A DNA stretch of 64,000 nt from Candidatus Methylacidiphilum fumarolicum (GTDB lineage Bacteria; Verrucomicrobiota; Verrucomicrobiia; Methylacidiphilales; Methylacidiphilaceae): positions 248,001 through 312,000 of the forward strand of contig NZ_OX458932.1 of the NCBI RefSeq assembly GCF_949774925.1. The letters run 5' to 3'. The position numbers and the translations under genes are program-made. Below, piece after piece: positions 36,954 through 56,095 of the stretch. A model generated the notes under the pieces. It had not been told where the DNA came from and did no database searches. It was given only the letters and a program-made list of their open reading frames with translations. Within the stretch, counting starts at the first letter, position 1. The number at the start of each line of letters is the position of its first letter.

Positions 36954-39900
36954 ATGCCACAAACGGTAATTGTCATTGGGATGCATCGTTCAGGCAGCAG
37001 TGCGCTAATGCGGGCGTTGAACTATTTGGGGGTGGAATTAGGCGAAGAGCTGCTTGAGGCCAGGCCGGATAATCCAAGGGGTTTTTGGGAAGACAAGGAA
37101 CTCCTTGAGATAAACGAGTTATTGCTGAAGGCCTGCGGGCTGCGCTGGGATAGTTGTCAGTATCCCAAGGTAGATGTCTCCCAACCGGAGGTAAGTCGGC
37201 TCTGGGAGAGGGCTATAGAGCGTTTCAGAGGGAAGTTGAGCCGTGGGGAAAATTTTGGGATGAAAGATCCTAGGATGATTCGGCTTTTGGAATTTTGGCA
37301 TGGTGTCTTTCGGGAACTAGGGGTGAGACCTTGTTATGTACTTTCTCTGCGGGATCCTTTATCGGTAGCGGAATCGCTGTTCAGGAGGAATGGGTTTTCG
37401 CAGGCAAAATCGTTTTGTTTATGGCTGTCCCATTATCTTTTGCCATGGGAGGAGTATGCCCCGTTTTTGAAAGTCGTGGTTAGTTATGACCAGTTGGTGA
37501 ATCGACCGGGGGAGGAGTTAGAACGGGTAGCTCGAAGGTTGGGCTTAAGGATGGAGCCTGGGGTGGTGGAGAGGATGAAGCAAGAATTTTTAGATCCGGC
37601 TCTGAGGCATGCTTCTTATTCTGAAGAGCAGCTGAGGGAGCAGCTGGGTGGATTTAGTTTTTTGTATACGGTCTGGGAAGCTTTTGAGGGCTTGGCGTAT
37701 GGAGGGCAGGAGGAGGAAGCCAAGGAAAAGATTGGGAAGCTTTCAGGAGGGAGTGTTTCTTTGAATGAACTCTTTGGTTTTGTGGATCAATACGAAAAGC
37801 TCCTAGATGGGATAACTAGGGAGAAAAATGATTTAGAAACACATCTCAGTCAGCTCTATACCCAACAAACCCACATACAACAAGTAGTTGATGCGATGTC
37901 AGAATATATCGCAAAACAGGCGACAAAGCTATATCCCAAGCAGTTGGAAGAACAAAAACAGCTGATTTTTTTTGGATCGAAAAAGAAACCGCAACCACAA
38001 AATCCAATTGTGGATCAGGCACGATTTATTCTTGAACAAGGGATTTTTGATTTTGGTTATTACTGGAGCATTTATCCTGATGTGCGTAAAGACAGGAATG
38101 ATCCCCTCCTTCATTTTCTCCAGTATGGGTGGAAGGAAAGGCGCAATCCACATCCGTTGTTTGATACCGATTATTATTTGAAGGAGAATGAGCAGTTGGA
38201 GCAGGAAGGGATCAATCCGTTGGTACATTTTTTAGAGCGGGGATGGCGAGAGAAGAGGAATCCGCATCCGCTGTTTGATCTCGGCTATTATTTAGGACAA
38301 TGTCCGCAGCTAGAAGCGGAGGGGATAAATCCTTTGGTGTATTATCTTAAAGGAGGATGGGAAGGAGGAAAGAGTCCGCACGCACTTTTTGATTCAAGTT
38401 ATTATTTGGAGCAGAATCCCGAAGTAGGGCAGGAAGGGATCAATCCATTGGTACATTTTTTAGAGCGGGGGTGGCGGGAGAAGAGGAATCCGCATCCGCT
38501 GTTTGATCTCGGCTATTATTTAGAGCAGTGTCCGCAACTAGAAGTGGAGGGGGTAAATCCTTTAGTGCATTTTGTGAAGATAGGGTGGAAGGAAAGGCGC
38601 AATCCACATCCGTTGTTTGATACCGATTATTATTTGAGGGAGAATGGACAGTTGGAGCAGGAAGGGATCAATCCGTTGGTACATTTTTTAGAGCGGGGAT
38701 GGCGAGAGAAGAAGAATCCGCATTTGTTTTTTGATCTGAGCTATTATTTAGGGCAATGTCCGCAACTAGAAGTGGAGGGGGTAAATCCTTTAGTGCATTT
38801 TGTGAAGATAGGGTGGAAGGAAAGGCGCAATCCACATCCGTTGTTTGATACCGATTATTATTTGAGGGAGAATGGACAGTTGGAGCAGGAAGGGATCAAT
38901 CCGTTGGTACATTTTTTAGAGCGGGGATGGCGAGAGAAGAAGAATCCGCATTTGTTTTTTGATCTGAGCTATTATTTAGGGCAATGTCCGCAACTAGAAG
39001 TGGAGGGGGTAAATCCTTTAGTGCATTTTGTGAAGATAGGGTGGAAGGAAAGGCGCAATCCCCATCCATCGTTTGATGTTCAGTTGTATGAGGAAGCACA
39101 TCCAGGAGCAGTAAGGACAAATGCTTTTCTTCATTATCTAGTTAATAAGCCAGAGGACTGGCAGAGGTATTGGGTGAGGGAAGAGTTTGGAAAGAAGATC
39201 TCTGAATTAACAGGAAGTTGGAAAAATAAAAAAAAGGGTTCACTGATTTTGTTCATCGATCATGTTTTGGGAGGCGGAGCGAATTTTTATCGTCAACAAT
39301 GGATCCAGCAGTTAGAAAAAGAAAATCAGTTAATTTTTCTTTTCTATTATAATTTTTTTAAAAAAGGCTATTATGTACAGATTTTAGGTTGGGAAAATCA
39401 GCTCTTATTAAGCTGCAGCTGCCCAGATTCATTTTTTCTTCATATAGAAGCACTATGTGAGATTTTTGATCGTCTAGAAATTATTCCTAATGCATTGGTT
39501 TCATTCCCTGATCCTTTATCTATCCTTGAGTGGTGTTTACAGTTAAAAAAACAGAAGGCAGTCAAGATTATCGTTCCTATTCATGATTACTTCTGTGTAT
39601 GTCCTTCTTACAATCTTTTGAACGAGAAAGACCAGTTCTGTGGCATTCCGGCAATTGAAGAATGCAGGCGTTGTCTTGTGGCTATTGATAAAGATGAAAC
39701 TTATCCTAAAACTCTGAATATCGATTTATGGAGAAGAAAGTGGCAGGATTTTTTGGAACATGCTGATGAAATTCTCTGTTTTTCTGAATCCTCGCTTTCT
39801 CTGCTATTGAAAGCCTATCCAACTTTAGAGAAAAGCCAGATTGTTCTCAAACCCCATGCGATTGGTTCATTTCGCAAAGCAAAGCTAAGGGCTCCTCAGC

Positions 39901-40352
39901 CAAATGAGGAAGTGATTGTGGGCATTGTAGGACACATCGATACAAAGGCTAAAGGTAAGGTACTGATTAGAGAGATGACTCAAGCGATTCAGCTTGAAAA
40001 ATGGCCGATCAAGCTAGTGGTTATAGGAACGGTGGGGGATCAGGAACTAGAAAAAAAACTGCATGTGTATGGCCCGTATAGAAAAGAAGAATTAGTTTCT
40101 TTGATTGAATCTTCGATGGTCAATCTTTGTTTTTTACCTTCGATTTGGCCGGAAACTTTTTCGTATGTTACTGAAGAGTTGATGGCAATAGGAGCTCCTT
40201 TGGCCGTATTCGATCTAGGGGCGCAGGCTGAAAAAGTCAGGCGGTATAAATTAGGTCATGTCATTTCTCACATTGATCCTCGGATTGCCTGTAAGGAACT
40301 TTGTGAGTTTGCTTTACGGTTAGCGGAGTTAAAAGAATTTAAGCAGGAATAG
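36954..40352 (+). CDS. Sulfotransferase + 38-residue repeats + GT4-like glycosyltransferase
   Basis: This 1132-residue protein has three parts. Residues 1-260 are a sulfotransferase with the PAPS 5'-phosphosulfate loop GMHRSGSSALMRAL and a 3'-phosphate region SLRDPLSVAESLFRR. After a coiled coil (about 275-340) come nine 38-residue repeats plus a partial one (about 360-710) of the form FDxxYYLxxNxxLxxEGINPLVHFLxxGWxExRNPHPL. Residues about 760-1132 are a GT-B glycosyltransferase: LGGGANFYRQQW, HDYFCVCPSYNLLN, GIVGHIDTKAKGK and PSIWPETFSYVTEELM-IGAP. It probably builds and sulfates a surface glycan. The repeats recur in two methyltransferases of the cluster. Confidence 0.85.
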   Translation: MPQTVIVIGMHRSGSSALMRALNYLGVELGEELLEARPDNPRGFWEDKELLEINELLLKACGLRWDSCQYPKVDVSQPEVSRLWERAIERFRGKLSRGENFGMKDPRMIRLLEFWHGVFRELGVRPCYVLSLRDPLSVAESLFRRNGFSQAKSFCLWLSHYLLPWEEYAPFLKVVVSYDQLVNRPGEELERVARRLGLRMEPGVVERMKQEFLDPALRHASYSEEQLREQLGGFSFLYTVWEAFEGLAYGGQEEEAKEKIGKLSGGSVSLNELFGFVDQYEKLLDGITREKNDLETHLSQLYTQQTHIQQVVDAMSEYIAKQATKLYPKQLEEQKQLIFFGSKKKPQPQNPIVDQARFILEQGIFDFGYYWSIYPDVRKDRNDPLLHFLQYGWKERRNPHPLFDTDYYLKENEQLEQEGINPLVHFLERGWREKRNPHPLFDLGYYLGQCPQLEAEGINPLVYYLKGGWEGGKSPHALFDSSYYLEQNPEVGQEGINPLVHFLERGWREKRNPHPLFDLGYYLEQCPQLEVEGVNPLVHFVKIGWKERRNPHPLFDTDYYLRENGQLEQEGINPLVHFLERGWREKKNPHLFFDLSYYLGQCPQLEVEGVNPLVHFVKIGWKERRNPHPLFDTDYYLRENGQLEQEGINPLVHFLERGWREKKNPHLFFDLSYYLGQCPQLEVEGVNPLVHFVKIGWKERRNPHPSFDVQLYEEAHPGAVRTNAFLHYLVNKPEDWQRYWVREEFGKKISELTGSWKNKKKGSLILFIDHVLGGGANFYRQQWIQQLEKENQLIFLFYYNFFKKGYYVQILGWENQLLLSCSCPDSFFLHIEALCEIFDRLEIIPNALVSFPDPLSILEWCLQLKKQKAVKIIVPIHDYFCVCPSYNLLNEKDQFCGIPAIEECRRCLVAIDKDETYPKTLNIDLWRRKWQDFLEHADEILCFSESSLSLLLKAYPTLEKSQIVLKPHAIGSFRKAKLRAPQPNEEVIVGIVGHIDTKAKGKVLIREMTQAIQLEKWPIKLVVIGTVGDQELEKKLHVYGPYRKEELVSLIESSMVNLCFLPSIWPETFSYVTEELMAIGAPLAVFDLGAQAEKVRRYKLGHVISHIDPRIACKELCEFALRLAELKEFKQE
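38621..39076 (+). repeat. Tandem 228-bp DNA repeat inside the coding sequence
   Basis: Copy 1 (38621-38848) and copy 2 (38849-39076) are near identical at the DNA level and each encodes two 38-residue protein repeats. More diverged units of the same type precede them from about 38040. Copy-number change by slippage or recombination would keep the frame, since 228 is a multiple of three. Confidence 0.92.
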
Positions 40353-40361
40353 GAAAGAGTA

Positions 40362-42145
40362 AAGAATGCTTATTGCTATTGCCCTGCCAATCTAGTTATA
40401 AATAAACATAGCAAAACTCTATTCGCCGAATAAGTGTGGTGTGCTGATCGGTCGGAGCGTCACCAGGCAGTAGCAAAAGGCGTCAGCAAGGGGAGAAGCT
40501 TGCCAAATGGATTCCGACAAACCAGCGGCATTTCTCCCACGAGCCCTATCTGCGGGGGATCGGCCAAAAGACGACGAAAGCGCCGCACAAGCACGCGGCC
40601 AGAGTCCCAAGCGCCGGGCAAAAGAGGGATTTGAAGGCTCAGCGGAAAGCGCTGGCAAGGTTTTGTCTGTCCAATACAAAACGGCGGACGAACGGCTGAG
40701 GGCTTGAAAGCAGCGGATTAAACTACAAGAGAAAAATTTTCCTACGTCTGATGGAGCTGGAGGAACGGGGAGGAATCACCGAGATTGTGGAGGAAGGCTA
40801 CTCGAGCCCAAGCGGATTGCAGCCAAGAATGTGGAAGCTAGCCCTCAAAGAGGGCTAGGAAGCGATCGAACAGTGGGTGTTAGCCTCCTCTGCGATGATC
40901 AACCCAAAGATACAGCGGCGCCTGAGATGGGCAGAAGAAGCAAAGCGGATTGCTTTCTGGATATTTTACTCTCTGTAGCAGTTTGTTTCTGTGTTAGAAA
41001 AAAGAGAGAGCCTCCCGCTTCTAAAATTCACATGACAAAAGCAAGGCAAGCTACCATCCTTTTCAAGCGGCGAAAGGAATTGCAAGGTGCAATCGGATAG
41101 CCGCCAAGAGTGAGGCTGCGTCAGTCGATTGGATGCGAGCAATGAAGGTAGCAGACTTTTGAAGAGAAACGGAGGGCAGTATATCGCTCCCATGAGTCTT
41201 AAAAGTGGCAAAAAGATTGTCGTTGCTTTGTCTGCAAACTTAAAGATTCGGGACATGATTTGGCTTGTTTGAAAGGAAAAGGAGACGGTCATTCCCTACG
41301 CAGCACCAATACACATTCCAGAGAGATGATATGGGGAAGCGGTCGGGATAGAGGCTAGACATTCTGAAGTTTTCATAGATGATTACAGAAAGAAATAGGG
41401 AAGAGGGTTTGGGGAGTCAACCAAAACACATCCGCAAGCACAACCTGGGTGATATAAAGAAGGCGGCCTCGTGTGTGCAAGGAGCAAGCGAAAATAAAGC
41501 GGCAAATTCATACAAGCCTAAGCCCTCTTCTTCCATTACGCAGAGCTTCAGTAGATCATTCTTAAGGATCGACATATATATGGGAACGCTCCAAGTAAAG
41601 AGCTGTCCAAGGGCATCCTACCAATGCGCAGTTGCGTGCTTCAAGAGCGAATCGAATTTCTTTCGCCTGCGGGAGGTTCCCATCTAGAGAAAGTCAATCC
41701 ACCTATAGCTTCTCTGCTTTGTCCGAGATGTGAGTAGGGCCTCCAAAGAATCGCATGGAGGACAAGTTTGTATGCCGGCATGGCGGGTATTCGAGCTATG
41801 GAGATAGATTTGGCGTATACAACCACAAAAAAGGATCGGGGATGGGGAGATTCTTCTGTGGATGCTACAGAACTGGCTGAATGCAATGCTTTTGGAGAGG
41901 AGTATCTCTAATAGCGGGTTACCGCGCGATTGGAATCCCGATGCAGGGGACTGTTCCGGGGCAGGCGATTCTGGGCACCAGAATCATGTTGGTTGTAATG
42001 GACACGACGATGTGCAGGGTACAGCCAGCTCCCTCGGAGACCCGAAGCGGCTTGGGCATTCCCGAGTCATCCCGGTATAAACCCAAGACGAAAAAAACGA
42101 ATTTGATTCAGGCGTAAGCAGAACCCGAGTATGTTTTTAGGAATA
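40362..42145 (+). mobile_element. Decayed TnpB (IS1341-type) element
   Basis: The element starts ten bases after the stop of the preceding gene with the shared end (GCTATTGCCCTGCCAATCTA, then GGTCGGAGCG) and ends with GGCGTAAGCAGAACCC plus a T5 run. In between a TnpB-like protein can be followed in all three frames: GQSPKRRAKEGFEGSAE, EEGYSS, YIAPMSLKSGKKIVVAL and LCPRCE. Many stops and shifts break it. The RuvC-I site reads GIEAR (GAG at 41351) where Asp is expected. No tnpA is present. It separates the sulfotransferase gene from the rest of the glycan cluster. Confidence 0.82.
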
Positions 42146-42162
42146 GAAACCGTTTACTGGGA

Positions 42163-42204
42163 AAACAGTAGACTAGAGCTGAGGGAAACAGTAGACTAGA
42201 GCTG
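42163..42204 (+). repeat. Two direct repeats of 19 bp before the GT2 gene
   Basis: AAACAGTAGACTAGAGCTG occurs at 42163-42181 and again at 42186-42204, a period of 23 bases, in the short gap between the TnpB element and the GTG start at 42242. It could be a small duplication from the insertion or a regulator site; nothing decides between them. Confidence 0.8.
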
Positions 42205-42241
42205 GGCTGTTTCTATGAAAAATCGATAAAAGGGAGCTTTT

Positions 42242-44761
42242 GTGTTTAAAGCATGGGATTCCTTTTTAAAAGGACTAAGGACGAATCGATCTATTAAAAC
42301 GACTTTTATTGAAAAACCAAAGACAACGGAAAAACCAGATGCCATCCCTTTCCCCGATGAGCCGCAGAAGAGCCATTTTTGCTTGGATTCACCAATGCCA
42401 ATGGACCGGTTGATTATAAACAGCCCTGTTCTTGAAATTGACGGATGGTTTTTTGATTCTTTTGGAGAGCCTGCCCAATCGATTTGGATAGAAAAAGATG
42501 GGGTAAGTTACCCCGTGGAACCGGTGAGGAGAGAAGACGTCAAGAAGACTTACTCTTTTCTTGTGGATTTGTGGTGTGGGTTTAGAGCCAGGCTTCCATT
42601 ATCCCTTGAATTTGAAAAAATAGAAATACTGGCCTTGCATCGTAGTGGGAGAAAAGAAGTACTCTTTTCTTTTCAAGCGAAATGGAGTGGTCTTGTACAA
42701 GAGGCAGATAGCCAAGTTCGATTTGGTATTGACCAGCCGATAGCTGAGCGGATCGTAACGGATGGATATTGGATGGAGATTAGTGGATGGTGTTTTGACC
42801 AGAGTGGGAAAGCGGCCCAGGCGGTATGGTTAAGGTCATCTCAACAGCAGATTCGAGCGGAAAGAAGAATCCGGCCGGATGTTAAAAAAGATTATCCCAA
42901 GCTTCAGGATCTTGGCTGCGGGTTTTTCCTTTTTTTGCCGTTGACGGAAGAGGAACAACAATACAGCCTTGAAGCCGAGTTTTTGGATGGAACGATTTAT
43001 CCTTTGAAGACATTTTCTGCAAGACGGTTCAATCGAAAAGAAAAAGAAGAGCAGTATGCCCAGTGGCTTTTAGAAGAATCAAAATTCAAAGAACAGGATT
43101 ATCTAGCGACGATTCTAAAGGATACCCAGTTTGCTGTGCAGCCTTTTTTTTCGATCCTCGTTTTTTATGATCAACGTTGGAAAGAGGAAGATATCTACCG
43201 AGTGCTCTCAAGCTGTTTTTCTCAGTTCTATTCGCATTGGGAACTCTGGCTTTGTCCCTATGGCGCTGGACCTGTCTTTTCTGTTCAATCTTTTGGATAC
43301 CGTTGGCCAGGAGCCAAACAAAAGATTCATTTTCTTGAAAAAACCGCTACGAAAGCTGAAGCCTTGAATTGTGTTTTAACCTTAGTTCAAGGAGATTATG
43401 TTGTGTTGATAGATCCTTCGGTCCTAATTAGTAAAGAAGCTTTGTTTGTGTTTGGTGTAACAATCAATTGGCATCCTGATCTATTAATGGCTTTTTCTGA
43501 TGAAGATTCGATGGATGAGTCTGGGAGACGCTCGGATCCTATCTTTAAGCCAGGCTGGAATCCAGAGCTTCTTCGTTCGAATAATTATATTGGACTGGCA
43601 GCGATTTATAATAAGAAAGCGGTTTTGGATCGGCTAAGAATTGCGCCTTTACTGGATGGGCAAGAAGAGTGGGACCTAGCTTTAAGAATTGGAAGTTTTG
43701 ACTGCGACAAAAACGGGGTAGTGCATGTTCCTCGCATTCTTTTCCATCGCTTCTGTTCAAAGCAAGCAGTCGGTCGGAACAACAGGGAAGATAAAGAGCG
43801 GTTAGTGTTGGAAACCGATTGTCGTCTTAGAGGAAAGGATGAAGTAACAATCAAAAAAACAGAAGAAGGATGGCATCTTCGTTATTCTATTGGTTCGTTA
43901 TCTCCTTTGGTCAGCATTATTATCCCGACACGGCTTCCTTTGCCTTATGTAAAGACATGCATCGAGAGTATCCTTTCGAAGTCGACTTATCGGAAGTTTG
44001 AAATCTTGCTGGTGATTAACGGATACGGTTCTTTGGATCAAGAACAAAAGGCTTTTTTATCCGAATATTGTAGCTTAAAGCCACTCCGTTTGTTGTGGTA
44101 TGATGAGCCTTTTAATTATGCTGCGATCAACAATTGGGCCGCCAAAGAAGTAAATGGTGAGCTTTTGGCCTTTCTGAACGATGACGTGGAAGTTATTAGT
44201 CCAGATTGGATAGAAGAGATGGCTGGACATGCCTTGAGGAAAGAAGTGGGAATTGTGGGAGCAAAACTTTACTATCCGAATCTGACGATACAGAGTGATG
44301 GAATGATCCTTTGGAAAGATTACCGAAGATTCCATGGCATGAGCCGAGAATTGGCAGGGTATCTAGGCTTAGCAAAACTTTGCCAAAACTTGACTGGGGT
44401 GATTACAGCCTGTGCGCTTATGCGCAGAGAATTATTCGAACAGGTGCATGGGTTTGACGAAGAATTTGCCTACAATTGGAACGACTTGGATCTTTGTTTG
44501 CGGTTAAAAGAAAGAGGATACTGGACGGTGTGGACGCCTTTTGCTGAGCTAATTCATTATTGTTCGGTTTCCGTTGGTCAAGAATCAATCGACAAACAGC
44601 AGCAGTGGGAGAAGGAAAAAGAATTGTTCGAAAAAAAATGGAAAGAAAAATTTCCATCCGATTCTTTTTATAACCCGAACCTGAGTGATTCGCCCCCTTT
44701 TTATAGGCTTGGGACTACTCCTTGGGATATAAAGGTTTGGGAGAAGAAAAAGAATGGATAA
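42242..44761 (+). CDS. Tandem GT2 glycosyltransferase with two beta-rich adaptor domains
   Basis: The 839-residue protein starts at GTG 42242 after AAGGGAG. Two adaptor domains come first (about 54-145 and 165-262); each has a GWFFD or GWCFD strand, an RxDV motif and a CGF core. Then come two GT2 folds. The first (about 300-530) keeps SDEDSMDESGR and EEWDLALRIG, but its DxD site reads DPSVLI. The second (about 555-810) is intact: VSIIIPTRLPLPYV, LLAFLNDDVEV, GIVGAKLYYP and WNDLDLCLRLKERGY. The second domain is therefore probably the active one. It is the first gene of a six-gene same-strand run and ends three bases before the next. Confidence 0.87.
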   Translation: MFKAWDSFLKGLRTNRSIKTTFIEKPKTTEKPDAIPFPDEPQKSHFCLDSPMPMDRLIINSPVLEIDGWFFDSFGEPAQSIWIEKDGVSYPVEPVRREDVKKTYSFLVDLWCGFRARLPLSLEFEKIEILALHRSGRKEVLFSFQAKWSGLVQEADSQVRFGIDQPIAERIVTDGYWMEISGWCFDQSGKAAQAVWLRSSQQQIRAERRIRPDVKKDYPKLQDLGCGFFLFLPLTEEEQQYSLEAEFLDGTIYPLKTFSARRFNRKEKEEQYAQWLLEESKFKEQDYLATILKDTQFAVQPFFSILVFYDQRWKEEDIYRVLSSCFSQFYSHWELWLCPYGAGPVFSVQSFGYRWPGAKQKIHFLEKTATKAEALNCVLTLVQGDYVVLIDPSVLISKEALFVFGVTINWHPDLLMAFSDEDSMDESGRRSDPIFKPGWNPELLRSNNYIGLAAIYNKKAVLDRLRIAPLLDGQEEWDLALRIGSFDCDKNGVVHVPRILFHRFCSKQAVGRNNREDKERLVLETDCRLRGKDEVTIKKTEEGWHLRYSIGSLSPLVSIIIPTRLPLPYVKTCIESILSKSTYRKFEILLVINGYGSLDQEQKAFLSEYCSLKPLRLLWYDEPFNYAAINNWAAKEVNGELLAFLNDDVEVISPDWIEEMAGHALRKEVGIVGAKLYYPNLTIQSDGMILWKDYRRFHGMSRELAGYLGLAKLCQNLTGVITACALMRRELFEQVHGFDEEFAYNWNDLDLCLRLKERGYWTVWTPFAELIHYCSVSVGQESIDKQQQWEKEKELFEKKWKEKFPSDSFYNPNLSDSPPFYRLGTTPWDIKVWEKKKNG

Positions 44762-44764
44762 GCT

Positions 44765-46294
44765 TTGTTTAAAGAAAAAAAACGTTTCTATTCTTTGGAG
44801 GCCAGAAAATGGATTAAGGATATGGCTGAAGAGCAGCAAATGGACGGCGAAAAGTGGATTCAGTCTTTGATTAGCAAAGTCCACGAGCAGACTGAATGGA
44901 TGAAGCTCCAACAGCAAGCTGCTGCCTTTGCTTCTTTGGCTTATGGCAGGCTTTGGATTCAAGCTCATCAGTCTTTTGAATTGGGAAGGCAATCTTTTGG
45001 GTTCCGATCGATTTTCTCAAAGAAAGAAAACCCACAGCTTTCTATAGCTTCTTGGATAGTTGTAGCCAAAGAAATTGCGAAATCCGCTCTTTTCGATCCC
45101 GCTTATTATCTCCAACAATACCCAGATGTGCGGCTCTCTGGGGTAGATCCACTGACTCATTTTGTTTTGTACGGTGCCAGGGAAAAACGCAATCCAAACC
45201 CTTTTTTTGACGTGGAATATTACTTAGAGCAAAACCCGGATGTGGCGGAGTCCAAAATCAATCCCCTCTATCATTTTATCTGCTATGGGTGGAAAGAAGG
45301 GCGAAAGCCCCATCCTCGGTTTGATCCAGCGTTTTATCTTAACCAATATAAGGATGTTGCTGAGGCGGCCATTAATCCTTTGTCGCATTATCTATTGTTT
45401 GGCCAGTTGGAAGGAAGAATTAGTTCTCCAGAGGAAGAGCCGGTGATTGATTCTCAGCAAAGAATTCTTCTTAACGGTTCTCTTGTAGAAATTGAAGATT
45501 GGTACCCTTATGGCTTTTCTCCAAGTCCAAGGTGGGGCTACGACAAGCCTGTTCATCCGATCCTTTATTCGATAATCAAAAGATCTGAGGATCATTACCG
45601 CTCTCTTTTAACTGACTGGGTTCAGTATGCTGAGGATTTGCTTTCCTTTCCTCTTCGTGACAGTGGTTCTGAATTAGATCCTTGTTGGGAAAATAGTTCT
45701 TTCCCACCTTTAGATGCGATCGCTCTTTTTGGGATAATCGCCACCACAAAACCCGCTTTGTTTTTGGAAATAGGTTCAGGCTTTACTACCCGGTGGGCGT
45801 ATGGAGCTAAAGCGAGGTATTCCCCGCTGACGAAACTGGTGTCAATCGATCCTCACCCTAGGGTGAAAGTGGATACATTATGCCACCAGGCTTTCCGAAG
45901 GCCTCTTCATGAAGTCCCTTTAGATATTTTTGAGCAGTTGGAAGCAGGGGATATCCTTTTTATTGATGGGACTCACCGGATTCTGCAGGGTTCTGAGGCA
46001 ACTATTTTCTTTCTGGAGATCTTGCCTATACTAAAGGCTGGAGTGATCATTCATCTTCATGATATTTTTCTACCTTTTGATTATCCACCGCACTGGCAGA
46101 AAAAATTTTATTCCGAACAGTATGTGCTTGGGTCGATCCTTTTGGTTGCCACCGAAAAATATAGAATTCTTTTCCCAAGCTTTTATGTGAGTCAGCATCA
46201 GGAGCTTTTAAAGATTTTGGACCCACTTTGGACAAATCCCAAGCTTCAGAGTCTAAAGCCAAAAGGGGGTTCTTTCTGGTTTGTTAAGAATTAA
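44765..46294 (+). CDS. 38-residue repeats + Methyltransf_24-like methyltransferase
   Basis: The 509-residue protein starts at TTG 44765, three bases after the previous stop; an ATG at 44822 is an alternative. A helical N-terminus is followed by three repeats (about 110-225: FDPAYYLQQYPDVRLSG, FDVEYYLEQNPDVAES, FDPAFYLNQYKDVAEA) of the type seen in the sulfotransferase protein. The C-terminal 270 residues have a class I SAM site FLEIGSGFTTRWAYGAK, the acidic SIDPHPRV, and DILFIDGTHRILQGSEAT with LHDIFLPFDYPP, as in Methyltransf_24 proteins. A role in methylating a glycan or its precursor is inferred from context. Confidence 0.82.
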   Translation: MFKEKKRFYSLEARKWIKDMAEEQQMDGEKWIQSLISKVHEQTEWMKLQQQAAAFASLAYGRLWIQAHQSFELGRQSFGFRSIFSKKENPQLSIASWIVVAKEIAKSALFDPAYYLQQYPDVRLSGVDPLTHFVLYGAREKRNPNPFFDVEYYLEQNPDVAESKINPLYHFICYGWKEGRKPHPRFDPAFYLNQYKDVAEAAINPLSHYLLFGQLEGRISSPEEEPVIDSQQRILLNGSLVEIEDWYPYGFSPSPRWGYDKPVHPILYSIIKRSEDHYRSLLTDWVQYAEDLLSFPLRDSGSELDPCWENSSFPPLDAIALFGIIATTKPALFLEIGSGFTTRWAYGAKARYSPLTKLVSIDPHPRVKVDTLCHQAFRRPLHEVPLDIFEQLEAGDILFIDGTHRILQGSEATIFFLEILPILKAGVIIHLHDIFLPFDYPPHWQKKFYSEQYVLGSILLVATEKYRILFPSFYVSQHQELLKILDPLWTNPKLQSLKPKGGSFWFVKN

Positions 46295-46361
46295 AAGGGA
46301 TGCTAAAGAGGATTTGAAAAAAAGAAAATTGTTTCTATCGGTCCAGCTTTTTGGATAAGTG

Positions 46362-47558: not shown

Positions 47559-47723
47559 TGAAACATTACTTAGCTTTTTAGCTATCAAGGTTGGTAAGTG
47601 GTTCGCAGAACGGCTAATATAGTAGCAAAAATGTTAGAGGAGCTACTTATATAAAAGAGAATTTTATTGACGGGACGGTTTGCAGAGTTATTAGATACAG
47701 TCATTTTAATCAGTTTAATTTGG

Positions 47724-50179
47724 ATGTCTCCAATTGGTAAAATTTGTTTTTCTCTTGAAGAGCCTAAAAAGAGGTTATTTTTTTCGAAAGAAAGAAAAAT
47801 TTGTTTTCGAGGCTATTTTTTCGATTCATTTGGAAGGAAAGCCAAGCAGGTTATTCTCCAATACAAAAATGAAAGGATATTAGCTGGTTCGCAGCATAGG
47901 GAAGATATCCAAAGGTGGTATGCCAAATCGAATATCCAGATTGAAAAAGAAGTCGGCTTTGAAGGCTGGATCGAATTAAGCCGCGGATTAAAAGAAATCG
48001 ACATCTTAGCTGAACTCTCTGGCGGCCGAACCCTCCGGCTAGCTCGCTATTATAGCTTCGTTTATGGAGCAGCAACACCCCACTCAAAGATTGAGCAACA
48101 AGCAAATCCGGTTTGCCTTCCGTCCGCATACTTTTGTCTTGATGCCCCTCAAGCTGAAGAGCTGATAATAACAGAAGATATTTTTCTTGAAGTTAGGGGT
48201 TGGGTTTTTGATACAGAAGGCAATCCTCCAAGTTCTGTAATAGTAAAAAACCCAGCGCGAGTGTTCCCCTGCAAAGCAATCGCTCGCAGCGATGTGAAAG
48301 CGGAGCATCCAATTTTAAAAGATATCTGGTGTGGCTTTTTGGGCAGGATGCCCTTAGATGAAAATCTCTTTGAATACATTGTGGAAGCAGAGTTTCCCAG
48401 TGGAAAGAAGCTTGAGATTGGCAAGTTTTCTGCCCGTTCTTTCAATAGAGAAGAAAGAGAGAAATGGAATCAGGATCGCTACAAGGAGTGGTTTGTCCAG
48501 TATGGTCAGTTTGTGGGCAGAGAAGAGGAGCTATTGAGGCGGCGGATTAAGGGGTTTGCCTACAAGCCAATCTTTTCGGTTGTGATGGTGGTGGGGTTAG
48601 GGGATAGGCTAGAGGGAGTGTTAGCGACAGTACGGTCCGTAGTAGGGCAGTGGTATGAGCAGTGGGAACTGCTTTTGGTGTTGTATGGGGGTAGGAAACT
48701 GACCGTAGAGGAGCTTAGGGGTGTGGGAGGAGAAGGTAAGCTAAGGGTAATAGAGGTGAACTCTTCAGAGAAGGGGAAGGCAAAGGAGGTGGGGGTAAGG
48801 GAGGCATGTGGGGAGTACTGCCTGCTATTGGACAGTGGGGAAGAGCTAGTGGCGCATGCGTTGTATGTATTTGTGGAGGCGCTTCAGGAGGATAAGAGGT
48901 TGGATTTACTTTTTGGGGATGAGGACCAGCTGAGTGATGGGGGAGAGGTGCACAGTCCGGTATTCAAGCCTGGGTTTAATTATGATTTATTGAGATCGGT
49001 GAACTATTTAGGAAGGCCGGTGGTTTTTAGGAAGCAGAAGGCGATGGAGGTGGGAGGGTTTGACGAGGGGCTAGAGGGGGCAGAGGAGTGGGATCTTTAT
49101 TTAAGGATGACGACTGACAGGGTGGATGGGCATGGGGTCTGTCATCTGCCTTATGTGCTGTGTCATCGGGGAGGGGAGGCGGTGGCTAGAGGGGGTGTGG
49201 TGAAGGAGGAAGTGGAGCGGGAGGTGGTGTGGAGGGATTGTACGCGACGAGGGGTAGGAGTGGAAAGGATAGAGAGGCTTAAGGGAGGGTGGCGGATACG
49301 GTATGGGATAGGGGAGGCGAAGCCACTGGTGAGCATCGTGATGCCCTCGAAGTGTCAGCTTACTTATCTTAGGCCCTGTGTAGAGAGTATAATGAGCAAG
49401 ACGAGCTATGACCGCTACGAGTTATTGTTAGTGGTGAATGAGAAGCGGCTGAGGAATGCGGAGGTGAGGCAGTATTTGGAGGGGTTGAGTGGGGGGGAGG
49501 GGAAGGTGCGGCTGGTGGTGTATCCGGATGAGCCATTTAACTATGCGAAGATTAACAATGCGGCGGTGAGGGAGGCGCGGGGGAGGTATTGGCGTTGTTG
49601 AATGATGATTTAGAAGTGATTACAGGGGATTGGCTTGAGGAGATGGTAGGGCATGCGATGCGGGCTGAGGTGGGGGCGGTAGGGGCGATGCTTTACTATC
49701 CGGATGGGACGATACAGCATGCTGGGGTGATATTAGCGGAGCGGGGGATTCCGGATCATAGGCTTAGGAATGTGAGGAAGGAGGAGGCAGCGGAGGGGGG
49801 CTATCTTTGGTATGAGCAGAATTTGAGTGCGGTGACGGCGGCCTGTGTGGTGATGAGGAAGGCCTGTTTTATGGAGGTGGGGGGCTTTGATGAGAGTTAT
49901 GCGATAGATTTAAACGATATAGACTTATGTTTACGATTGAGGCAGAGGGGCTATTTGATAGTGTGGACGCCTTTTGCTGAGTTTTATCATTACGAGTCGG
50001 TCTCGAAGATGGCGGACATAGCGGAGCAGTATGCGCTGTGGTCGGAAGAAAATTCGAAGTTTATAAAGAAATGGCTGCCTGTTTTCCCGCTGGATCCTTA
50101 TTACAACCCTAATTTGTCTTTTAAGCCGCCCTACTATAAACTCTCTTTCCCACCAAGGGTTAAACCTCTTATTCGTTGA
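47724..50179 (+). pseudogene. Tandem GT2 glycosyltransferase, frameshifted by loss of one G
   Basis: The gene starts at ATG 47724 (a TTG at 47667 is also in frame). Two adaptor domains (about 15-110 and 150-260) precede a G-rich tandem GT2 part. The frame breaks at a five-G run (49579-49583): it reads AAVREARGRYWRC and stops at 49601, while the next frame continues ALLNDDLEVITGDW to 50179. The sister gene at 50513 has six Gs at that place and is uninterrupted. The first GT2 domain has DSGEEL where DxD is usual, and the second, with NDDLE, is now in the wrong frame. It is a recent mutation, a phase-variable tract or a base-call error. Confidence 0.88.
48504..50160 (+). repeat. 1.66-kb duplicated GT2 module, copy A
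   Basis: This segment matches 51275-52932 with no gap except one missing G. Homology begins abruptly at GGTCAGTTTGTGGGCAGAGA and ends at CACCAAGGGT. Outside these limits the two genes are clearly diverged. Both copies are strongly G-rich and C-poor on the coding strand. Confidence 0.93.
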
Positions 50180-50512
50180 TTATAATAGTCATTAAGGTTC
50201 TACTTAGGATTGAATGCTTTATACCAATCCTTTCCCATTAATTCATTACTTGGAATAGGCTCACAATGTAAATAGGCTTACAATGTACTGCATTTGAAGA
50301 TGATTTGGAAAAATCAACTGCCACTTAATAGCAGGATTGCAGGCAGGAATAACCCTTAGCTTTCCAGATCAAAAAATTAGACAAAAGATTTTTTTTCGTT
50401 TTTTATTTTTAACTTAGAGCGGATAGCATTTATTCTTAAGCATTATAAACAGTCAATTTTGTTCTTATTATTGACTCATTATTTATAATTTCTTCCAAAT
50501 GATTCGGAATCG
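50180..50512. other. Intergenic region between the two GT2 copies
   Basis: These 333 A+T-rich bases have no gene. A 17-base tandem repeat is present: AATAGGCTCACAATGTA (50254-50270) and AATAGGCTTACAATGTA (50271-50287), with one difference. The A+T-rich end may hold a separate promoter for the gene at 50513. Confidence 0.55.
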
Positions 50513-52969
50513 ATGAACCAAAACCGAAGCTGTTTCTTTTCGATCGAATCCCCAAAGCATCGATTTCTTGTCTTAGGAGAAAGAAAAATCTGCTTTAGCG
50601 GCTATTTTTTTGATTGCTATGGCAGAAAAGCTAATCAGATCCTTATTAAGTGGGATGATAAACAGGTTATTGTAAATAGGTTAGACAGAGAGGATGTCCA
50701 AAGACTTTATGCTCAAAAAGGGATTGCGGTAGAAAAGGCGGTGGGTTTTGAAAGCTGCATTGAATTAAGCCGTGGCTTAAAAGAAGTTGACGTGATTGCA
50801 GAACTCTCTTGTGGAGAGAAGATAAAGCTAAAGAAATTTTTTTTCTATATTTGGTCAAAGAAGTATTGCTTAGATCCGCTCTATGATAATCAGCAGCAAT
50901 TAGTTGGATATTATAATATTGAGAAGCCTCTTGAAAAAGAAGTCGTTTCAACCCAGCACTATCTCGAAGTGAGTGGTTCTGTCGTAGACAAGGATGGGTA
51001 TCCACCTCGATTAGTCCAGATTAAAACATCTACTAGAAAATATCCTTGCCAGCAGATTTGCCGAAAAGGGATTCAGAAAGATTACCCGTTTATCAAAGAT
51101 AATCGTTGTGGGTTTGCAGGCTACGCTTTTTTAGAAGAACTACCAAAGCAATACAGCATAGAAGTAGAGTTTCTATCTGGACAAGTGGCTGAATTAGCAA
51201 CGTTCTTTGCAAGTCTAAAAGTTCAGGAGGACAGAAGAGAAAAAGAACTCTATAAAAAATGGTTCAGCAGCTACGGTCAGTTTGTGGGCAGAGAAGAGGA
51301 GCTATTGAGGCGGCGGCTTAAGGGGTTTGCCTACAAGCCAATCTTTTCGGTTGTGATGGTGGTGGGGTTAGGGGATAGGCTAGAGGGAGTGTTAGCGACA
51401 GTACGGTCCGTAGTGGGGCAGTGGTATGAGCAGTGGGAACTGCTTTTGGTGTTGTATGGGGGTAGGAAACTGGCCGTAGAGGAGCTTAGGGGTGTAGGAG
51501 GAGAGGGTAAGCTAAAGGTAATAGAGGTGGACTCTTCAGAGAAGGTGAAGGCAAAGGAGGTGGGGGTAAGGGAGGCATGTGGGGAGTACTGCCTGCTATT
51601 GGACAGTGGGGAAGAGCTAGTGGCGCATGCGTTGTATGTGTTTGTGGAAGCGCTTCAGGGGGATAAGGGGTTGGATTTACTTTTTGGGGATGAGGACCAG
51701 CTGAGTGATGGGGGGCAGGGGTACAGTCCGGTATTCAAGCCTGGGTTTAATTATGATTTATTGAGATCGGTGAACTATTTAGGGCGGCCTGTGGTCTTTA
51801 GGAAGCAGAAGGCGATGGAGGTGGGAGGGTTTGACGAGGGGGTAGAGGGGGCAGAGGAGTGGGATCTTTATTTAAGGATGACGGCTGGCAGGGTGGATGG
51901 GCATGGGGTTTGTCATCTACCTTATGTGCTGTGTCATCGGGGAGGGGAGGCGGTGGCTGGAGGGGGGGTGGTGAAGGAGGAAGTGGAGCGGGAGGTGGTG
52001 TGGAGGGATTGTACGCGACGAGGGGTAGGAGTGGAAAGGATAGAGAGGCTTAAGGGAGGGTGGCGGATACGGTATGGGATAGGGGAGACGAAGCCACTGG
52101 TGAGCATCGTGATGCCCTCGAAGTGTCAGCTTACTTATCTTAGGCCGTGTGTAGAGAGTATAATGAGCAAGACGAGCTATGACCGCTACGAGTTATTGTT
52201 AGTGGTGAATGAGAAGCGGCTGAGGAATGCGGAGGTGAGGCAGTATTTGGAGGGGTTGAGTGGGGGGGAGGGGAAGGTGCGGCTGGTGGTGTATCCGGAT
52301 GAACCATTTAACTATGCGAAGATTAACAATGCGGCGGTGAGGGAGGCGCGGGGGGAGGTATTGGCGTTGTTGAATGATGATTTAGAAGTGATTACAGGGG
52401 ATTGGCTTGAGGAGATGGTAGGGCATGCGATGCGGGCTGAGGTGGGGGCGGTGGGGGCGATGCTTTACTATCCGGATGGGACGATACAGCATGCTGGGGT
52501 GATATTAGCGGAGCGGGGGATTCCGGATCATAGGCTTAGGAATGTGAGGAAGGAGGAGGCAGCGGAGGGGGGCTATCTTTGGTATGAGCAGAATTTGAGT
52601 GCGGTGACGGCGGCCTGTGTGGTGATGAGGAAGGCCTGTTTTATGGAGGTGGGGGGCTTTGATGAGAGTTATGCGATAGATTTAAACGATATAGACTTAT
52701 GTTTACGATTGAGGCAGAGGGGCTATTTGATAGTGTGGACGCCTTTTGCTGAGTTTTATCATTACGAGTCGGTCTCGAAGATGGCGGACATAGCGGAGCA
52801 GTATGGATTGTGGTCGGAAGAAAACTCGAAGTTTATAAAGAAATGGCTGCCTGTTTTCCCGCTGGATCCTTATTACAACCCTAATTTGTCTTTTAAGCCG
52901 CCCTACTATAAACTCTCTTTCCCACCAAGGGTAACGCTTCTGCCTGAGGATTGGGAAACAGAGAAGTAG
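50513..52969 (+). CDS. Tandem GT2 glycosyltransferase with two adaptor domains, intact copy
   Basis: This 818-residue protein is the uninterrupted sister of the frameshifted gene at 47724. Adaptor domains lie at about 5-110 (ICFSGYFFDCYGRKANQI, REDVQRLYAQ, VGFESCIELSRG) and about 145-245 (YLEVSGSVVDKDGYPP). The first GT2 domain (about 270-500) has FSVVMVVGLGDRLEG, LLLDSGEELVAHAL with a changed DxD, FGDEDQLSDGG and EEWDLYLRM. The second (about 530-790) has VSIVMPSKCQLTYLRPC, ALLNDDLEVITGDW, LYYPDGTIQHAG and NDIDLCLRLRQRGY, consistent with activity. It probably adds a sugar to a surface polymer. It ends 11 bases before the ATG of the next GT2 gene. Confidence 0.9.
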   Translation: MNQNRSCFFSIESPKHRFLVLGERKICFSGYFFDCYGRKANQILIKWDDKQVIVNRLDREDVQRLYAQKGIAVEKAVGFESCIELSRGLKEVDVIAELSCGEKIKLKKFFFYIWSKKYCLDPLYDNQQQLVGYYNIEKPLEKEVVSTQHYLEVSGSVVDKDGYPPRLVQIKTSTRKYPCQQICRKGIQKDYPFIKDNRCGFAGYAFLEELPKQYSIEVEFLSGQVAELATFFASLKVQEDRREKELYKKWFSSYGQFVGREEELLRRRLKGFAYKPIFSVVMVVGLGDRLEGVLATVRSVVGQWYEQWELLLVLYGGRKLAVEELRGVGGEGKLKVIEVDSSEKVKAKEVGVREACGEYCLLLDSGEELVAHALYVFVEALQGDKGLDLLFGDEDQLSDGGQGYSPVFKPGFNYDLLRSVNYLGRPVVFRKQKAMEVGGFDEGVEGAEEWDLYLRMTAGRVDGHGVCHLPYVLCHRGGEAVAGGGVVKEEVEREVVWRDCTRRGVGVERIERLKGGWRIRYGIGETKPLVSIVMPSKCQLTYLRPCVESIMSKTSYDRYELLLVVNEKRLRNAEVRQYLEGLSGGEGKVRLVVYPDEPFNYAKINNAAVREARGEVLALLNDDLEVITGDWLEEMVGHAMRAEVGAVGAMLYYPDGTIQHAGVILAERGIPDHRLRNVRKEEAAEGGYLWYEQNLSAVTAACVVMRKACFMEVGGFDESYAIDLNDIDLCLRLRQRGYLIVWTPFAEFYHYESVSKMADIAEQYGLWSEENSKFIKKWLPVFPLDPYYNPNLSFKPPYYKLSFPPRVTLLPEDWETEK
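51275..52932 (+). repeat. 1.66-kb duplicated GT2 module, copy B
   Basis: This is the partner of 48504-50160, with six Gs at 52350-52355 where copy A has five. Scattered substitutions are few, which points to a recent duplication or ongoing gene conversion. Confidence 0.93.
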
Positions 52970-52980
52970 GAATTGGACAG

Positions 52981-55098
52981 ATGATAGGAACGAGTATGAT
53001 GATGGGTTCGGTAAGCAAAGCACATAATGTGCATTACGTGATAGAAAATCCCAAAAGCGCGGTGTTGTTTCTAAAGGATAGGCTATTGTATGTTTCAGGC
53101 TGGTTTTTGGGACCGGAAGGCAAAACGGCAAAAAAAATAATTGCCCAGAGCAAAAATAGCGTATTTGAAGCTGAAATAATTGAAAGACCGGATGTAGAGC
53201 AGCGGTATTCCTCGCGGGAAGTGTCAATACGAAGGGATTGCGGTTTTGAGATTTTCTGTGATCTGAGTCGAGGTGTCAAATATGTCGTCATTAAAGCTCA
53301 AGAAGATTCGGGGAAGTGGATTAAGCTTGGAAGTTTTATTGTTATTGTTCAAAAAACGGAAAGAAAAAAAACCATCGATTCCTATTATCAACATTGGCTA
53401 GAGCTTTTTGATTCGATTTCACCAAAAGACCAAGAAAAAATAAAAGCGAGGATTACAAAATTATCGATTCAACCACTCTTTTCGGTTTTAATGCCCGTTT
53501 ATAATACGCCAGAAAAATATCTTATCGAATCGATTGAGTCGGTCAGAAATCAGATCTATCCGCACTGGGAGCTATGCATATCTGACGATGCTTCATCAGA
53601 TCCAGCCATTCGGCGAATTTTGGAAGACTATCGGAGGAAAGATCCAAGAATCAAGGTAACGTTCCGAGAGACCAACGGTCATATGAGCGCAAATTCAAAC
53701 AGTGCACTGGAACTAGCAGAAGGAGAATTCATTGTACTTCTAGACTCGGACGATCTTCTTGCACCACATGCCCTTTATATGGTTGTGGAAGAAATTAATC
53801 GATTCCCCGAAGTCTGTATCCTGTATAGTGATGAAGATAAAATTGATGAAAAGGGCAAGCGGTATAGTCCTTTTTTTAAACCTGATTGGAATCCAGATCT
53901 TTTCCGATCTCAAAATCTCATTAGTCATCTTGGCGTCTACCGAAGGGATGTGGTAAAGAAGGTTGGAGGGTTTCGAATTGGTTATGAAGGGGCGCAAGAT
54001 TGGGATTTAGCGTTGCGGGTATGGGAGCAGGTCGGAGATAAAGCTATAAGACATATTCCTTATGTTTTGTATCATTGGCGTGCGGTATCGGGTTCAACAG
54101 CTTTGGACATCAACATAAAACCGTATGCTGCAAAATCGGCAAGGAATGCCATAGTGGATCATCTAGCACGAAAACAGATCAAGGCAATAGTTCTTCCGGC
54201 GGGGCCATATTTCGAGTATCATCGGATTCTTTACGATATTCCAAAACCGTATCCCAAAGTCAGTTTGATCATGCTTTCAGCCTTCAAACATTCCTTGGTA
54301 AAAGATTGCATTGAAAGTATTCTTTTTAAGACCGATTACAAAAATTTTGAGCTTTTAATTGTTGTAAATGGTCCTAATTGTACTCGTCCAGAGATCACAA
54401 CCTATCTGGATCACCTGCAAAAGAGAGCGCAGCTTAGGGTATTGTATGACGACCAGAACGCTTTTAACTATTCGAAGCTGAACAATTGGGCTGCTGAACA
54501 GGTGGATTCGAATATCATTGGATTTATTAACGACGACTTAGAAGTTCTCCATCCCGATTGGCTAACTGAATTAGTGAGGCAGATCTGCCGGCCTGAGATA
54601 GCGGCTGTGGGGGCTAAACTCTTTTATCCTCACGGTACGATCCAGCATGCTGGGGTAGTGTTGCTCGTAGGAGGAGTGGCTACTCACAGATTTTCTGGCT
54701 TTAGCAGAGAATATAGCGGATATTTTTCCAATGCCTTGCTCCAACAAAATATTGGCTGTGTGACTGCTGCCTGTATGTTGATCAAAAAAGAAGTCTTTGA
54801 AGAAGTAGGGAAGTTTGATGAAAATTTATCAATCGATTTTGGAGATGTGGATTTATGCTGCAAACTGATCAGTAAAGGCTATTGGATTAGCTGGACACCT
54901 TATGCCGAATTAATTCATCATGAGTCAAAATCTAGAGGCCGTCAAGCTAGCGAGCATTCCAAAAAAGAATGGATATATTGGCGGGAAAAATGGGGGAAAG
55001 TGATTAACGAGGATCCTTTTTATAATCCCTGCCTTTCTCTAGAATGTCCGTATGCTTTAGCCTTTCCTCCTAGAAGGAAGAATCCTTGGAATCAATAG
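52981..55098 (+). CDS. Tandem GT2 glycosyltransferase with one adaptor and two intact GT folds
   Basis: The protein has about 705 residues from ATG 52981; the frame opens at TTG 52951, which would overlap the previous gene. One adaptor domain comes first (about 10-125: YVSGWFLGPEGKTAKKI, RPDVEQRYSS, CGFEIFCDLSRGVK). The first GT2 domain (about 160-400) is complete, with SVLMPVYNTPEKYL, CISDDASSD, VLLDSDDLLAPHA and YSDEDKIDEKG. The second (about 425-690) has INDDLEVLHPDWL, LFYPHGTIQHAGV and FGDVDLCCKLISKGY. Both DxD sites are present, unlike its paralogues. Its composition is ordinary rather than G-rich, so it resembles the ancestral form of the group. Confidence 0.9.
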   Translation: MIGTSMMMGSVSKAHNVHYVIENPKSAVLFLKDRLLYVSGWFLGPEGKTAKKIIAQSKNSVFEAEIIERPDVEQRYSSREVSIRRDCGFEIFCDLSRGVKYVVIKAQEDSGKWIKLGSFIVIVQKTERKKTIDSYYQHWLELFDSISPKDQEKIKARITKLSIQPLFSVLMPVYNTPEKYLIESIESVRNQIYPHWELCISDDASSDPAIRRILEDYRRKDPRIKVTFRETNGHMSANSNSALELAEGEFIVLLDSDDLLAPHALYMVVEEINRFPEVCILYSDEDKIDEKGKRYSPFFKPDWNPDLFRSQNLISHLGVYRRDVVKKVGGFRIGYEGAQDWDLALRVWEQVGDKAIRHIPYVLYHWRAVSGSTALDINIKPYAAKSARNAIVDHLARKQIKAIVLPAGPYFEYHRILYDIPKPYPKVSLIMLSAFKHSLVKDCIESILFKTDYKNFELLIVVNGPNCTRPEITTYLDHLQKRAQLRVLYDDQNAFNYSKLNNWAAEQVDSNIIGFINDDLEVLHPDWLTELVRQICRPEIAAVGAKLFYPHGTIQHAGVVLLVGGVATHRFSGFSREYSGYFSNALLQQNIGCVTAACMLIKKEVFEEVGKFDENLSIDFGDVDLCCKLISKGYWISWTPYAELIHHESKSRGRQASEHSKKEWIYWREKWGKVINEDPFYNPCLSLECPYALAFPPRRKNPWNQ

Positions 55099-55138
55099 TA
55101 ACAAGTTCCACAAGAATAAAAATAATAGACTAGTAGTC

Positions 55139-56095
55139 TTAATCCTGATTTTTTTCCATAACGCAGAGATATTGGCCACATCGAGACCGATCGTTGTAGA
55201 TCAGTTGCATCTCTAACATTTGGGCATATTCTTTAAATACCTCTGGAGTTAGGTAAAGATCCAATAAGAGTGCATCTTTTCCCTGTTCAATGGAGTTGAC
55301 TCGCTCGATAAACATCTTTCTATGGTTGTCATCTAAAATGCTTAGATAGCTGCATAGAATTCTACCATCTTTTTTAAGCACTCGTTTAGCTTCTTTTAAG
55401 AAAATGAAACCTTCTTCTTCCAATAGATGGGTCAGGACAGAAAAGAACACGACTAGATCAACTGAATTGTCTGCTAAAGGGAATTTATACTGGTTATTAA
55501 ACAAAAATTCCCAGCCTGGTCGATTACATCTATCTCTTGCGTATTCTAAAAGTTCGGGAACAATATCCATTCCTATATAATGCACCTGCTCAGCCAGTTC
55601 GGATCGAGCTAATGCGTAAGCTAATCTTCCCGATCCACATCCTACGTCGAGGATCATTTTGCCTTTTCTCAATTTGCCCCACTGGATGGCCAGATCTAAT
55701 AGGATATTCCCCATTTCTATATATTCAAATTCACTTCCTACGGCTAAAGCCATTGCTCTTTGCCTGTCAAAGCTTTTTAGTAAATTGGCTATGTATTTTG
55801 GATAATCTATTCTAGTGTTCCAAATAAAATTGGGAACAGGATTTCTTCCTTCGAAAATCCCCCATTCAAGATAATGGACTAGAGGATTGACTCCGCTATT
55901 TGCTACATCTGGATTATTTTGTAAATACCAGCTTGTATGAAATAAAGGGCTCGGGTTTTTCCCCTCTTTCCATCCTATTTCCATATAGTGCTCGAAGGGA
56001 GTTTTCCCAGAATGAGTGACTTCCGGATAGTTTTTTAAGTAATAGTCTTTGTCGAAATAGCCAAAGCGGATTATTTTTTCTTCAATTAGGTTCAT
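55139..56095 (-). CDS. 38-residue repeats + class I methyltransferase
   Basis: The 318-residue protein begins with two repeats (about 8-90: FDKDYYLKNYPEVTHSGKTP, SWYLQNNPDVANSGVNPL) of the kind found in the sulfotransferase protein. A linker leads to a class I SAM domain with ILDVGCGSGRLAYALAR (motif I), GMDIVPELLEYARDRC and LVVFFSVLTHLLEEEGF. It is a different methyltransferase type from the two upstream Methyltransf_24-like ones. It is on the opposite strand, converging on the GT2 gene with 40 bases between. Methylation of a glycan is the natural guess; the acceptor is unknown. Confidence 0.85.
   Translation of the reverse strand: MNLIEEKIIRFGYFDKDYYLKNYPEVTHSGKTPFEHYMEIGWKEGKNPSPLFHTSWYLQNNPDVANSGVNPLVHYLEWGIFEGRNPVPNFIWNTRIDYPKYIANLLKSFDRQRAMALAVGSEFEYIEMGNILLDLAIQWGKLRKGKMILDVGCGSGRLAYALARSELAEQVHYIGMDIVPELLEYARDRCNRPGWEFLFNNQYKFPLADNSVDLVVFFSVLTHLLEEEGFIFLKEAKRVLKKDGRILCSYLSILDDNHRKMFIERVNSIEQGKDALLLDLYLTPEVFKEYAQMLEMQLIYNDRSRCGQYLCVMEKNQD

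Follow-up and report, generated by a model that had tools for sequence, protein, structure and literature searches.

The locus considered here raises the question of what two add-on modules, a 38-residue repeat (rep) and a beta domain of about 100 residues (BETA), do for the enzymes to which they are fused. Methylacidiphilum is a methane-eating hot-spring bacterium, and the stretch of DNA analysed (64,000 nucleotides in all, referred to as the window) is part of a complete 2.48 Mb Methylacidiphilum chromosome. Among named relatives, Methylacidiphilum sp. Yel stands closest, and one of its contigs matches the cluster at 91-93%. Within positions 36954-56095, eight genes in 19 kb, one of them frameshifted, have catalytic parts fused to rep or to BETA. 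The original prediction treated both modules as adaptors that dock the enzymes on a common scaffold or on the glycan. The features of the locus are listed below.

32768-35050, + strand: FHA-like exoprotein, predicted secreted; TIGR01901-like N-terminus, below cut-off
36954-40352, + strand: p1, Sulfotransfer_3 (36966-37556), possible coiled coil, rep solenoid, Glycos_transf_1/GT4 (39897-40265); 1132 aa
38046-39149, + strand: p1 rep solenoid, nine 38-residue units and a partial tenth; fold taken from the model of the related p3 array
42242-44761, + strand: p2, BETA-BETA-GT2-GT2, 839 aa; first GT2 without DxD
42371-42700, + strand: p2 BETA domain 1
42716-43039, + strand: p2 BETA domain 2, sequence modelled (pLDDT 95.8)
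44765-46294, + strand: p3, three rep units and Methyltransf_24 (45764-46066), 509 aa
45092-45433, + strand: p3 rep array, sequence modelled (pLDDT 97.1)
46359-47558, + strand: p4, BETA and Methyltransf_24 (47025-47327), 399 aa
46380-46703, + strand: p4 BETA domain
47667-50179, + strand: p5 (with p6), BETA-BETA-GT2-GT2, a single gene split at about 49577-49590
47742-48071, + strand: p5 BETA domain 1
48126-48449, + strand: p5 BETA domain 2
50513-52969, + strand: p7, BETA-BETA-GT2-GT2, 818 aa
50531-50860, + strand: p7 BETA domain 1
50903-51226, + strand: p7 BETA domain 2
52951-55098, + strand: p8, BETA-GT2-GT2, 715 aa; first GT2 keeps DSDD
53029-53352, + strand: p8 BETA domain
55139-56095, - strand: p9, two rep units and Methyltransf_11/31 (55322-55669), 318 aa
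55829-56056, - strand: p9 rep array, two units

Open reading frames and Pfam matches place all eight genes where they had been predicted, with the predicted catalytic types (sulfotransferase, GT4, tandem GT2 and two kinds of methyltransferase) and both modules. The list of eight proteins is correct as to the genes present, but the frames at 47667-49601 and 49589-50179 make up one GT2-GT2 gene. The gene order is sulfotransferase-rep-GT4; BETA2-GT2-GT2; rep3-Methyltransf_24; BETA-Methyltransf_24; BETA2-GT2-GT2 (split); BETA2-GT2-GT2; BETA-GT2-GT2; and, on the opposite strand, rep2-Methyltransf_11. Pfam assigns Sulfotransfer_3 and Glycos_transf_1 to the product of 36954-40352, Glycos_transf_2 to the 42242, 47667/49589, 50513 and 52951 proteins, Methyltransf_24 to the 44765 and 46359 proteins, and Methyltransf_11/31 to the 55139 protein. 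BETA is present in eight copies on five of the proteins. The 19 kb hold eight of the nine BETA domains and three of the four rep genes of the 2.48 Mb genome, and the clustering is therefore not due to chance; the remainder of the genome contributes one BETA gene (GT2-GT4) and one rep gene (Mt24).

The split in the 47667 gene lies in a G tract that differs by one base from that of the paralogue, with five G in place of six (sites at 49557-49610 and 52328 in the window, and at 8355 and 11107 in L094). It is common to this genome and G149, and in the latter a second G tract splits the 50513 homologue too. Slippage or decay may account for these length differences; for phase variation of the classic kind, tracts of this length are short. 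The tandem-GT2 parts of the two genes are nearly identical (48501-50174 and 51272-52932), with a GC content of 0.485 against about 0.42 in their neighbours, consistent with gene conversion or recent duplication. The canonical DxD has been lost from the first GT2 of the 42242, 47667 and 50513 proteins, which have DPS or DSG there, and the first GT2 of the 52951 protein retains DSDD; judged by this motif, the three DxD-less modules may be non-catalytic. Between p1 and p2 lie 1.8 kb without a long ORF (40361-42180), in which no inverted repeats were found. This spacer is missing in G149 and in strain Yel, where the p1 and p2 homologues are adjacent.

Pfam and NCBIfam contain no model for either module. 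The rep units align over 38 columns with a mean column identity of 66% and with F1, Y6, P20 and G28 invariant. The p3 array, when modelled alone, forms a confidently predicted solenoid in which each 38-residue unit contributes three helices. A Foldseek search of the PDB gave no match beyond a meaningless one (E 8), no sequence match was convincing, and PDB sequence searches with rep and with BETA returned nothing useful. The VIA-align comparison of rep covered a single chain, and a relative among the known alpha-solenoids, TPR-like or other, may well exist. The rep fold does match, at 24-42% identity, stretches of giant-virus proteins, among them GT2, GT1, glycosyltransferase, FkbM methyltransferase and DUF5672 proteins, and glycosyltransferases carrying such stretches occur in Hyperionvirus, Fadolivirus and Harvfovirus. 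These glycosyltransferases resemble the cluster proteins in this respect but are viral rather than bacterial, and the repeat is absent from their description in PMC10117803. A plasmid or viral origin for the cluster was considered and set aside, as there was no plasmid match and the repeat has no relative in IMG/VR. As modules, rep and BETA appear to be undescribed, and an earlier description under another name is possible outside the open-licence literature.

One BETA domain of p2, modelled alone, is an Ig/FnIII-like sandwich, and it resembles the Ig/FnIII accessory domains of glucodextranase (Z 10.3), mannanases (about 8-9) and CbhA (FnIII, 8.5). Many such domains belong to glycoside hydrolases. 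The general fold is the same, but those modules sit on secreted, degrading enzymes, whereas BETA is found on biosynthetic and presumably cytoplasmic ones. Wzt_C is also an Ig-like beta sandwich, and in Pseudoxanthomonas yeongjuensis (L033) BETA takes the position of Wzt_C (PF14524) on an ABC ATPase. BETA differs in being about 100 aa long and mostly N-terminal on GT2 enzymes, and no sequence or profile relation to Wzt_C was detected: there was no Pfam PF14524 match, and hhalign gave a probability of 0.2% against four Wzt_C domains, so that a Wzt_C relation by profile was rejected.

Both modules lie N-terminal, central or C-terminal to catalytic parts, which speaks against their being mere extensions of a catalytic fold. 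Fusion is promiscuous, with partners that include GT2, GT4, methyltransferase, sulfotransferase, RgpF and ABC-ATPase domains and are overwhelmingly glycan-active. Rep was found with GT2 (26), GT4 (21), sulfotransferase (10) and methyltransferases (14), and BETA with GT2 (31), Mt24 (5), GT4 (3) and one ABC ATPase, on which it is C-terminal, in the place of Wzt_C in canonical Wzt. BETA occurs in up to three tandem copies. The labels for partners and domain order come from HMMs built from few seed proteins and were confirmed by Pfam on a subset; the counts include some unmerged ORF fragments as well as orthologues in sister species, and so are not independent events. Among 73 rep and 56 BETA ORFs, the two modules were never found on one protein. 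In all eight rep proteins that combine a modifier with a glycosyltransferase, the order is modifier, rep, glycosyltransferase.

Over 273 residues, p3 and p4 match at 54% identity in their catalytic parts, upstream of which the two proteins have only their different add-ons; the prediction that these Methyltransf_24 paralogues share a catalytic part, with rep on one and BETA on the other, thus holds. In the methyltransferase tree, a single clade with 99/97 support contains enzymes with BETA (four genomes), with rep (three genomes) and with neither (G549). A frame-broken remnant of BETA lies upstream of the open methyltransferase frame in G549, indicating that the module decayed there while the frame stayed open. 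Rep and BETA are therefore interchangeable on one enzyme family. The Mt11-Mt11 protein has five repeats in G149 and no rep in G069 and G549. Elsewhere in the genus, a conserved Methyltransf_24-rep protein of 828-851 aa stands alone, with a domain order opposite to that of p3 (L027 7710-10193, L127 7473-10025, L124 7095-9617). Taken together, the confident isolated models, the placement before or after many kinds of catalytic domain and the exchange within one methyltransferase family bear out the view of rep and BETA as modules that probably fold independently, and not as parts of one enzyme family or outgrowths of its catalytic fold.

The expectation that the two modules would form one paired system was not supported. 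Across 241 genomes of the phylum, rep was detected in 29, BETA in 24 and both in seven (p 0.014, with sister species counted); counted per genus, the figures are 15, 18 and four of 132, with 2.05 expected (p 0.12). Outside the genus Methylacidiphilum, both occur in three of 237 genomes against 2.1 expected (p 0.35), which is no better than chance. Among 35 rep genomes from many phyla, a BETA match was present in five, in the same cluster in one of them, and 30 were without BETA. Shared clusters elsewhere do exist, which supports the view of rep and BETA as independent modules. The P. yeongjuensis locus is a close parallel to the Methylacidiphilum cluster, with ABC-BETA, Mt11-BETA, rep-RgpF-Glyphos, Sulf-rep and rep-GT2-GT4 genes within 11 kb, and in L098, from another verrucomicrobial family, a BETA gene and a rep gene are adjacent. 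These last two genes were considered as a further adaptor exchange and rejected, since they encode different enzymes (TOD1_MUCI70 and a weakly Anp1-like protein) that are not detectable paralogues. Six other verrucomicrobial genomes have between four and seven BETA matches each (six or seven in genomes such as G072, G152 and G057), which lie mostly in a single region, and gave no rep match; in Gammaproteobacteria BETA is rare (two of 274), and most clusters outside the genus use one module only. Because the modules recur on many bacterial sugar enzymes, and one of them in giant viruses, they look like general parts of surface-glycan assembly.

The best explanation overall, to which we give not quite an even chance, is that cytoplasmic enzymes build and decorate one surface glycan, with rep as a spacer or tether and BETA as a glycan holder. 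The GT2 and GT4 domains would build the chain, the sulfotransferase would sulfate it and the methyltransferases would methylate it, on a single glycan that is probably common to the cluster. The alpha-solenoid of rep would space or tether the catalytic modules, a putative role comparable to that of the coiled-coil spacer in WbdD/WbbB-type proteins, although docking would also fit; BETA would hold the growing glycan in the manner of a carbohydrate-binding module, and glycan binding is its most likely role by fold resemblance and analogy. With these roles, the enzymes would all work on one chain and would not need to share an add-on. Polymerase-terminator enzymes of O antigens that depend on ABC transporters have a layout of modifier, coiled-coil spacer and glycosyltransferase, and Klebsiella O7 ORF6 consists of a methyltransferase, a coiled coil and GT2 domains, plus an Ig-like domain interpreted as a CBM (PMC11231755). 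WbdD-WbdA, WbbB and ORF6 thus resemble the cluster proteins in joining a modifier (methyltransferase), a spacer and glycosyltransferase modules in one chain or complex. In p1, modifier, spacer and glycosyltransferase are indeed found in one chain, with weak coiled-coil-like matches at residues 258-338. The differences are that the spacer here is a solenoid of 38-residue repeats and theirs a coiled coil, that BETA is spread over many proteins of one cluster, that p1 has a sulfotransferase in the place of the modifier, and that the genome is without a Wzt_C protein. None was found in the genome of the window, and two control genomes gave matches; in L106, L108, L121 and L058, canonical Wzt_C ABC ATPases do have BETA or rep genes in their neighbourhood. 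From the modifier-rep-glycosyltransferase order in eight of eight proteins, the terminator-like layout and these nearby ATPases, we infer spacing or tethering for rep and glycan holding for BETA. The Wzt_C-free genome and the cluster, in which no exporter was seen, count against this explanation, as does the lack of profile similarity between BETA and Wzt_C, and an O-antigen route is at most putative here.

The reading that comes nearest to it concerns the FHA-like exoproteins, whose link to the cluster the original prediction had overlooked. Homologues are encoded in all five genomes of the genus. Four of these assemblies are unfragmented, and in them no exoprotein locus is more than about 12 kb away from rep or BETA genes; the fifth is fragmented. 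The gene is single in the window, and in sister species it forms tandem arrays, with partly broken copies, beside rep or BETA genes (L093 2571-13005; L123 4213-9015; L125 859-5367; L136 223-2379 and 11669-17912). G069 has a second locus, with exoproteins at 1486-1495 kb and Sulf-rep at 1498 kb, and G549, which was checked after the pattern had emerged, agrees with it (exoproteins at 1916-1934 kb, with BETA at 1915 kb and Sulf-rep-GT4 at 1923-1925 kb). G149, G069 and G549 all preserve one gene order, namely exoproteins, Mt11-Mt11, Sulf-rep-GT4. This linkage suggests that the exoproteins carry the glycan, and attachment of the cluster glycan to them is possible. The fuller proposal, a dedicated system in which the glycan is built, sulfated, methylated and attached to these exoproteins, would account for the proximity at all loci and for the kept order, but we consider it unlikely, though not remote. 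No exoprotein homologue was seen in rep or BETA loci outside the genus, and the Aneurinibacillus locus L041 has an SLH protein nearby. N-glycosylation sequons are mildly above expectation (18 against 13.4), the Pfam matches of the cluster include neither an oligosaccharyltransferase nor an HMW1C-type enzyme, and a neighbourhood of surface genes would be expected even without a substrate relation.

It is less probable still that BETA serves for homodimerisation, with rep as a passive linker, both having spread by tolerance of fusion and neither gathering enzymes nor binding sugar. The best Foldseek E-values for BETA are to sulfite-oxidase C-terminal domains, whose role is dimerisation, at scores about equal to those of the sugar-enzyme domains; with so generic a fold, dimerisation is equally compatible with it. 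The decay of BETA in G549 beside an open methyltransferase frame agrees with such a dispensable part. Against it, a glycan-related role is indicated by the tandem copies, by the ABC ATPase on which BETA occupies the Wzt_C position, and by the almost exclusive occurrence on glycan enzymes in several phyla. A common protein scaffold that docks both adaptors in one complex for sugar addition, sulfation and methylation is the least probable of these rivals: the modules are on all cluster enzymes, alpha-solenoids often mediate protein contacts and L033 and L098 combine rep with BETA, but no candidate scaffold protein was recognised, co-occurrence across genera does not exceed chance, and the BETA-rich genomes lacking rep and the rep genomes lacking BETA stand against it. 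Glycan binding or spacing is at least as good a fit.

The widest claim, which we regard as improbable in its entirety, would be that glycan assembly uses rep and BETA as a pair of undescribed but widespread targeting codes, with rep a new repeat fold that assembles sugar-building enzymes in bacteria and giant viruses, and that in Methylacidiphilum both serve a sulfated, methylated glycan coat on FHA-like exoproteins. The two modules are markers of glycan-assembly enzymes in many phyla, and one of them is also a marker of giant-virus glycosyltransferases. With their aid, surface-glycan clusters now read as generic GT2/GT4 could be recognised and grouped. The linkage to exoproteins offers the first testable substrate for the cluster, and, should rep prove to be a spacer and BETA to hold the glycan, the module changes that have arisen naturally within one methyltransferase family would be a ready-made test of modular glycan assembly.
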